Positions 21,636-42,589 of a stretch of DNA of 64,000 nucleotides are shown here, one piece after another. Numbering within the stretch: position 1 is the first letter of the stretch; every line of letters begins with the position of its first letter. The stretch is from Flavisolibacter sp. (lineage in GTDB: Bacteria; Bacteroidota; Bacteroidia; Chitinophagales; Chitinophagaceae): contig JAQBNG010000146.1 of assembly GCA_028288675.1 (NCBI GenBank), positions 1 through 64,000 of the forward strand. The letters run 5' to 3'. Both the position numbers and the translations under genes were made by a program. The notes below the pieces were generated by a model that did not search any database, had not been told where the DNA came from, and was given only the letters and a program-made list of their open reading frames with translations.

Positions 21636-21715
21636 AAGTGAGCAAAGATACCCGTTGCAATCTTTTATAAGAAAGCAGTAAACACAATTTCACTGGCTTT
21701 GTAAATGGGAAGACT

Positions 21716-21845
21716 GTTTGCGTGAGGGATAGTAGCGAAAATCCTTTTTGGTGCGTTGTCATGCTGAGCCTGTCGAAGCATTGTGCGTAGGCCAAAAAGA
21801 TTGCAGCAAATAGCCCGGCCCGAGGCTTTGCGAGGGACACGCCCA
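21716..21845 (+). repeat. Dispersed structured intergenic element, copy R1
   Basis: GTTTGCGTGAGGGATAGTAGCGAAAATCCTTTTTGG...CCAAAAAGATTGCAGCAAATAGCCCGGCCCGAGG...GGGACACGCCC; same boxes occur at 26471, 28205 and 42316. Confidence 0.85.
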
Positions 21846-21846
21846 A

Positions 21847-22971
21847 TTAATTATTTCCATTAAGTGTTGCCTCCAGAAACCTCTTCACCGTCCATGTGCT
21901 TAATTGTCCTCCTGGACCATTTAAGGTATAATCAAATCCATGCGTAGCCCATGGCAGGTATAACTCAAAGAATTTAATGTGTTGCTCCTTTAGTTTGATG
22001 CTTAAACGGGTACCGTGCCGCGGTGACACCAGGGGGTCGTTTTCGCCATATATAAGAAGCGTAGGAGGTGTGTCAGCGGTAACGGTTTCTGTGGCAGAGC
22101 TATTGATGTATTTGGCGTCTTGCTGACTTAAAGTGCCACCTAAATAATCTTCCATTATTTTACGACTATCAAGCACCAGGGGACTGGTTGGATTTTGATA
22201 ACCCCACACCATATCTGATGGTCCATAGAAACAAATTACCCCTTTTATACCGGGGTCATTCAACAGGTATCCAGCAGATAAAGCTATCTGTCCACCAGCG
22301 CTACGTCCAAGGAGAATGAAGTTGTTTGTGTCAATAGAAAAGGTGGCGGCATTACTTCTTAAAAAGCGCAAAGCGCCCTGCACATCCTCGGTGGTAGAGG
22401 GATAAATATGGCCAGGTGCCAGCCTGTAATTAATGCTGGCGACATGATAACCCGATTTGGCAAGTTCACTGTTTAACTCAGGTAATTGCCGGCTATCGCC
22501 ACCTGCCCATGAACCGCCATGAATAACAACAACGCATGGTTTTTTACCGGGTAAAACGCCATGATAAAAATCAAGACTAAGTTGATGAATTGGATCGTAA
22601 GTAATGGTTTTATAATTGACCTTTTTTGCGTTGATACCGGTCAGCATTTTTAATAGATTGAAAGGCGCTTCTGCAGAAGGTGCTGCTTTAAATACGGCGC
22701 TAAAATCTTTACCGAGCTTTTGAGAAATGCGAAAAGCCTGGAGCAACGGAAGCAGAAATAATATAATACCTGCTATGCCAATTATAGTTGTTGCCAGGTT
22801 GTATTTATCGCTGCCAAATTTCGAAAATAAGAGGAGACAGATCAGCATAAAAAAGATCCAGCAAAATTCTGTCACTAAAATAGATACATACCATAATAAG
22901 CTGGTTGGAGCACGGAATACAGTGAGCAGTGATAGTAAAAAAAGAATCGTTACCAATATCAATCTTGCCAT
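21847..22971 (-). CDS. Alpha/beta hydrolase (esterase/lipase-like)
   Basis: 374 aa; N-terminal TM segments, VVIHGGSWAGGDS, LLGRSAGGQIALSAGY, TLLIYGENDPLVSP, ATHGFDY. Confidence 0.88.
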   Translation of the reverse strand: MARLILVTILFLLSLLTVFRAPTSLLWYVSILVTEFCWIFFMLICLLLFSKFGSDKYNLATTIIGIAGIILFLLPLLQAFRISQKLGKDFSAVFKAAPSAEAPFNLLKMLTGINAKKVNYKTITYDPIHQLSLDFYHGVLPGKKPCVVVIHGGSWAGGDSRQLPELNSELAKSGYHVASINYRLAPGHIYPSTTEDVQGALRFLRSNAATFSIDTNNFILLGRSAGGQIALSAGYLLNDPGIKGVICFYGPSDMVWGYQNPTSPLVLDSRKIMEDYLGGTLSQQDAKYINSSATETVTADTPPTLLIYGENDPLVSPRHGTRLSIKLKEQHIKFFELYLPWATHGFDYTLNGPGGQLSTWTVKRFLEATLNGNN

Positions 22972-26470: not shown

Positions 26471-26593
26471 TTGAGCGTGCCCGAGGCGGGCCGGGCTATC
26501 CGCTATTATCTTTTTTGCCTTGGCAGTTTCTTTTTTTCTATAGCTTGATACCGAAGGCAAAAAAGGATAACCGCTTCTATCCCTCACGCAAAC
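26471..26593 (-). repeat. Dispersed structured intergenic element, copy R3
   Basis: Reverse complement: GTTTGCGTGAGGGATAGAAGCGGTTATCCTTTTTTGCC...GGCAAAAAAGATAATAGCGGATAGCCCGGCCCGCCTCGGGCACGCTCAA. Confidence 0.85.
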
Positions 26594-26636
26594 GGCCAGT
26601 ACATCTCAAATACAGAACTACACTTCACTGCATAAA

Positions 26637-28204: not shown

Positions 28205-28347
28205 AGGCGTGTCCATCGCAAAGCCCCGTTCCGCCTACATAGATTCATCTTTTCTTTTGCACCATACTTTGACAAATCTTCGCGAGCCCGGAGTGACAAG
28301 TCTGCCAACGCAGCAAAAGAGTTTAAGCTTCTATACCTAACGCAAAC
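28205..28347 (-). repeat. Dispersed structured intergenic element, diverged copy R4
   Basis: Reverse complement: GTTTGCGTTAGGTATAGAAGCTTAAACTCTTTTGCTGC...GTGCAAAAGAAAAGATGAATCTATGTAGGCGGAACGGGGCTTTGCGATGGACACGCC. Confidence 0.65.
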
Positions 28348-28377
28348 ATCACTCGTCTTAGCGGTAGTGATCAAATC

Positions 28378-42315: not shown

Positions 42316-42438
42316 TTTTGCGTGAGGGATAGAAGTGAAAATCCTTTTTTTCCCTTTGCCTGATGCTTCGATAGGCTTACCATGACAAAGAGCAAAAAAG
42401 ATTGCAGCAGACAGCCCCGCCCCAAGGGACACGTCCAA
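42316..42438 (+). repeat. Dispersed structured intergenic element, copy R2
   Basis: TTTTGCGTGAGGGATAGAAGTGAAAATCCTTTTTTTCCC...GCAAAAAAGATTGCAGCAGACAGCCCCGCCCCAAGGGACACGTCC. Confidence 0.85.
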
Positions 42439-42589
42439 CTAAAGATTCGTGACTTTCACAAAATGAATTCAATTTTACATATTTAGCTTTTTCACTATAG
42501 TTCATTATCTTGTAATATAACTGCAGTAAGATATCCTCTATATCTACTCACCAGACTAACGTAATTTTTAAAACTTCAACATAGTCAAT

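Follow-up and report, generated by a model that had tools for sequence, protein, structure and literature searches.

How do two copies of the same repeat come to carry the same inner hairpin in opposite directions? This question is raised by a 64,000-nucleotide stretch of DNA from Flavisolibacter sp. (hereafter, the window), which contains two copies, R1 and R2, of one hairpin element. The frames of the two copies run in the same direction and align plus/plus in BLAST (E 9e-12), whereas their cores are opposed: that of R1 reads TGTCATGCTGAGCCTGTCGAAGCATT and that of R2 is the reverse complement of TGTCATGGTAAGCCTATCGAAGCATC, with 22 of 26 positions identical, and the core region aligns plus/minus (35/42, E 6e-8). 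Both the count and the alignment bear out the original prediction on this point. The R1 core, at ≤3 mismatches, had zero matches in shuffled windows, so chance would produce none in the window. In addition to this pair, the window holds two further frames, R3 and a degenerate copy, R4. The features are listed below.

Table 1. Flavo-1 copies in the window and their parts. Class A, core in the R1 orientation; class B, core in the R2 orientation.
Feature	Position	Strand	Basis
R1: Flavo-1 (RF01705) with class A tip cassette and 3' hairpin GGCCCGAGGCTTTGCGAGGG	21715..21848	+	cmscan 21715-21824, 47.2 bits; 3' hairpin read from sequence
R1 frame 5' arm (TTTGCGTGAGGGATAGTAGCGAAAATCCTTTTT)	21717..21749	+	94% identity to R2 arm; conserved genome-wide
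R1 5' linker GGTGCGT, class A-specific	21750..21756	+	class comparison
R1 core: REP-like hairpin TGTC-ATGCT-(GAGCCTGTCGA)-AGCAT, same direction as frame	21757..21782	+	
R1 3' linker GTGCGTAGG, class A-specific; direct repeat of 5' linker	21783..21791	+	
R1 frame 3' arm (CCAAAAAGATTGCAGCAAATAGCCCGGCCC)	21792..21821	+	
R2: degenerate Flavo-1 with class B tip cassette	42316..42440	+	cmscan 42326-42417, 36.1 bits, E 3e-6 (local search); BLAST to R1
R2 frame 5' arm	42317..42349	+	94% identity to R1 arm
R2 5' linker TTCCCTTTGCCT, class B	42350..42361	+	class comparison
R2 core, reverse complement of that of R1; stem partly broken	42362..42387	-	
R2 3' linker AAGAGC, class B (AAGGGC in intact copies)	42388..42393	+	class comparison
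R2 frame 3' arm	42394..42422	+	
R3: Flavo-1, tip without core	26485..26601	-	cmscan 54.6 bits; tip read from sequence
R4: degenerate Flavo-1-like copy with a different tip	28206..28348	-	BLAST to R1; sequence

The frame shared by R1 and R2 is Flavo-1 (Rfam RF01705), a known but unexplained hairpin element of Bacteroidota, and in this genome it is a dispersed intergenic hairpin repeat. R1 and R3 score above the gathering score of the family (42 bits), whereas R2 falls below it; because one pair of the R2 core stem is also broken, R2 is regarded as a decaying copy. We gathered Flavo-1 copies with a search pattern, Rfam matches and region fetches, and parsed 50 of them, comprising the 48 Flavo-1 matches in the genome and 2 copies added by pattern. 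By a crude ORF test, 47 of the parsed copies are intergenic, and among tandem gene pairs the frame runs along the genes in 15 cases and against them in 10. Base variants of the P2 stem (AAAT/ATTG, CTAT/ATAGT and TTAT/ATAAT), which were read by eye rather than with a formal covariation statistic on the frame, suggest that P2 is maintained by compensatory change, as in members of the family.

Flavo-1 was put forward as a structured RNA of Bacteroidetes (Weinberg et al. 2010, PMC2864571). In a Flavobacterium transcriptome, its matches occurred in both sense and antisense, many of them beyond transcribed regions, and the literature on its expression as a structured RNA is ambiguous (PMC9723704). 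The copies described here agree with RF01705 in their arms, P2 stem and taxon. However, the Rfam model has a short, poorly conserved apical loop, whereas in this genome and in many other species this place is taken by a separate repeat in either orientation. In addition, some 50 mostly intergenic copies with no clear strand preference behave more like a dispersed repeat than like a single sRNA gene; automated annotation by RNA family may call such a mobile composite an sRNA gene. Single-sequence folding lends no support here, because the whole R1 and R2 elements fold no better than shuffled sequences (z of 0.11 and -0.70 as RNA, and -0.37 and 0.65 as DNA). When the apical part was folded alone, z was -2.0 for R1, -3.6 for the intact class B tip B2 and -0.06 for another class A tip. 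Some Flavo-1 copies (e.g., L009, L013 and L054) are flanked by imperfect inverted outer arms of ~20 nt (TGTTATGTTAAGTATG / CATAGTACGCTTAACATAACA), which reach past the Rfam model and are MITE-like.

Collecting the copies and scoring the orientation of their cores, as had been proposed, revealed that orientation is not fixed. Among the 50 parsed copies, the TGTCATGCTGAGCCTGTCGAAGCAT core was present in the R1 orientation (class A) in 9 and in the R2 orientation (class B) in 13, and the remaining 28 had a short or unrelated tip or no tip. Cores were also detected beyond Flavo-1 tips, at 29 sites with ≤2 mismatches, some of which may be chance matches at this threshold (the reversed control pattern gave 2 matches in the whole genome). 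At these outside sites the loop TGAGCNTGTCGAA is constant and the stems vary (ATCCT/AGGAT, ACTCT/AGAGT, AGGCT/AGCCT, ATGTT/AACAT). Among variable stem pairs, 73 of 87 are Watson-Crick, compared with a mean of 38 and a maximum of 56 in 5000 shuffles of the partners. A constant loop with compensating stems outside Flavo-1 identifies the core as a separate hairpin repeat. This independent REP-like hairpin of ~25 nt (TGTCA-stem-TGAGCNTGTCGAA-stem) is the commonest guest of Flavo-1 tips, which agrees with the suggestion in the original prediction that a second REP-like repeat had been inserted within the first.

Among known repeats, the core resembles the CGTC/TGTC-tagged REPs, a superfamily present in Bacteroidetes and Chlorobi that is reported to lack a dedicated transposase and whose members have also been found lodged within palindromes (Di Nocera et al. 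2013, PMC3733652). Like these, the core is dispersed. Its short stem starts with A and adjoins an apparent TGTC tag; TGTC occurs in the core and in most matches, although GTCA was required by the search pattern itself. The dispersed copies also display a palindromic stem under pairing constraint, as expected of such REPs (the stem pairs counted above). The core differs, however, in lacking their stem of 8-9 bp starting with AT and their loop of 4-5 nt (PMC3733652): it has five Watson-Crick pairs, its conserved apical part is 11 nt long, its N1 position varies, T is not the rule at its second stem position, and it would reach eight stem steps only if two G-A mismatches were counted. Its host palindrome also sets it apart, since it is Flavo-1, which we found nowhere described as a host. 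A literature search with the core letters returned no relevant paper, and none of the papers naming RF01705 dealt, by title, with guests in its tip.

The composite of frame and class A core extends far beyond this species. A scan of a genome collection for it yielded 91 stretches, nearly all in Bacteroidota, against a chance estimate of well under one; this wider scan overturned an initial assignment of the composite as species-specific, which was based on 399 genomes of the order. Among 50 of the genomes so found, taken because they bear class A, there were ~80 occurrences of the A pattern and seven of the B pattern, the latter spread over six genomes; this ratio is biased by the selection on A. 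Flavo-1 composites of the Bacteroidota type also turned up on contigs assigned to Bifidobacterium breve and Candidatus Nitrotoga, which were probably misbinned.

Several explanations of the two orientations need to be weighed against these data. The reversal could be merely apparent if near-palindromic hairpins look alike both ways round, and the five-base stem ATGCT/AGCAT is indeed self-complementary; but the loop GAGCCTGTCGA is asymmetric, with about 4 of 11 positions agreeing unreversed (hand count) and nearly all agreeing reversed, and the TGTC tag is reversed as well, which leaves such an accident scarcely credible. Alternatively, two founding Flavo-1 elements may have taken up the core, one forward and one reversed, and each may have spread with its frame with no later exchange of tips. 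The linkers are in fact class-specific (GGTGCGT/TGTGCGTTGG in class A and CCTTTGCCTG/CAAAGGG in class B), and frame variants are common to several B copies. Yet A and B copies were not distinguished by their frames (permutation p 0.16); one identical 47-nt frame occurs in seven copies with B (4), K (2) and A (1) tips; a distinctive GGCTATCC/GATAGTAG frame bears A in some copies and B in others; and tips of either class are found with each of the two common 3' hairpin classes (X and Y). Tips thus move among frames, and two closed subfamilies are quite improbable. The third possibility is that the apical hairpin was flipped in place, by recombination or by cleavage and religation between the arms, which are inverted repeats, so that orientation toggles at fixed loci. 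Such an arm-to-arm inversion would drag the linkers along. A and B tips have nothing in common but the core. When A tips were compared with reverse-complemented B tips, identity was ~0.85-1.0 across TGAGCNTGTCGAAG but ~0-0.5 at most positions of the 3' linker, and hybrids (A core and B linkers, or vice versa) were found in 0 of 22 copies. R1 and R2 are therefore not related by a simple in-place flip, and inversion of the core, one option in the original prediction, is not supported for this pair. Data from other species point both ways. In Flavobacterium cauense, a B tip, once reversed, matches two A tips over its full length, linkers included (44/53 and 42/51 identical), for which whole-tip inversion is possible and fits as well as insertion; a reversed tip in FEMGT703F matches at 31 of 36 positions. 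Upstream of metF in the syntenic metH-metF locus, Aquimarina algiphila has a nested A tip and Flavicella a B tip, but orientation is not the sole difference between these tips. Orthologous copies at one locus of four Aquimarina species (in one species with a core nested in the core) all retain orientation A, with changes in the stem letters. On balance, inversion of the whole tip seems an unlikely source of the two orientations.

Mobilization of the core by a RAYT encoded in the genome, as in a REPtron, was also considered. Four loci with PF01797 (Y1 transposase) are present in the genome, on contigs C11, C33, C69 and C153. The C153 gene has a Flavo-1, itself adjoined by a core, about 500 bp away and is the only one of the four with a core nearby; in C11, C33 and C69, cores and Flavo-1 were absent within about 1 kb, and REPtron-like flanking by either repeat was found at none of the four, so that the search for a REP-associated tyrosine transposase suggested earlier did not yield a partner for the core. 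REP/RAYT REPtrons and TnpA subclass 2.6 are known in Bacteroidetes, and NHVH and YIHNNP are the motifs given for this subclass (PMC6006769). The C69 transposase (L093, 1243-1794) has both motifs, with several hairpins GGCCTGAGTTTGCAACTCAGGCC upstream and a 17-bp perfect inverted repeat CTTTCCCCGATGAGTCT downstream, and the locus resembles a REPtron that has a repeat family of its own. Thus, such a transposase lies beside atypical hairpins in this genome too, but these hairpins are neither the core nor Flavo-1. Considering also that CGTC/TGTC repeats were reported without a dedicated transposase, we regard mobilization by a resident RAYT as very improbable.

We consider it likely instead that the Flavo-1 tip hosts a second, separately spreading hairpin repeat in either orientation, and that the tips of R1 and R2 were acquired separately and not flipped. 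The apical hairpin tip, and sometimes the tip of the 3' hairpin or the 3' border, would serve as a lodging site for other hairpin repeats. A hairpin placed in a hairpin tip would keep its fold both ways round, so guests could be retained in either orientation, the fold presumably being the property that is retained. The two orientations in this genome would reflect separate acquisitions with different linkers, followed by shuffling of tips among frames; the tips behave like cassettes that can be gained, replaced and exchanged. The conserved frame with an exchangeable core predicted for a modular element is supported, whereas the invertible core is not supported for R1 and R2. The guest may have been inserted by an enzyme as a single-stranded hairpin, or else palindromes may have undergone template switching or gene conversion with one another. 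In this genome, the A and B cores have one stem-loop variant in common and resemble each other more than they do any core outside Flavo-1; because this variant has no exact match elsewhere in the genome, the two classes probably have a common source, and one may have been derived from the other by inversion, with later change of linkers.

The turnover of tips is visible at metF. Flavo-1 was present there in only a handful of ~70 genomes examined, and across genera these copies would be orthologous by synteny. In a close relative of the Flavicella above (metF protein 86% identical), the frame and the 3' hairpin align but the tip, having been replaced, is unalignable, and in other genomes the metF copies have a different repeat or a minimal tip. 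One Flavo-1 tip upstream of metF contains a different repeat, TGTCAGTTCGAGTG...TATCGAGAAC. Hairpin tips would be places where a TGTC-tagged REP-like hairpin lands, either way round, and is turned over. A bolder and tentative proposal, which we hold to be rather doubtful, is that hairpin tips in Bacteroidota are actively targeted by single-stranded hairpin insertion. REP-like hairpins would then enter, in either direction, not only Flavo-1 loops but also one another's and those of further hairpins, and the resulting nested composites would be renewed at fixed loci within a host frame that persists. The variable loop of Flavo-1 is recast by our reading as the lodging site of a separate repeat family, which accounts for the unfixed orientation of the core, and loci that are orthologous and share a frame but not a tip, together with nested cores, offer natural experiments on how REP-like hairpins with no known transposase spread.

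Nesting of one core within another was observed in Aquimarina, Flavobacterium and this genome. The instance in this genome involves a duplicated segment (C109:20-104 and C153:242-326), in which 196 nt of the 3' flank are ~90% identical; 3' of Flavo-1, C153 has a simple core, whereas the core of C109 encloses a second one. Both segments are near contig ends and may be either paralogues or strain variants. In another case, the 5' flank of the copy at C92:6792-6893 equals that of C166:23717-23819 and its 3' flank that of C23:1367-1476, as if recombined at Flavo-1, although two of these three copies sit at contig ends and an assembly chimera is possible. The class A core lies between eight-base direct repeats (GTGCGTTG), which might at first sight be taken for a target duplication. 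Besides apical tips, the core was found in the tip of the 3' hairpin in two copies and directly 3' of Flavo-1 in seven (C5, C90, C109 twice, C129, C153 and C231). The latter are all in a single orientation though their stems differ, which suggests a preferred landing site.
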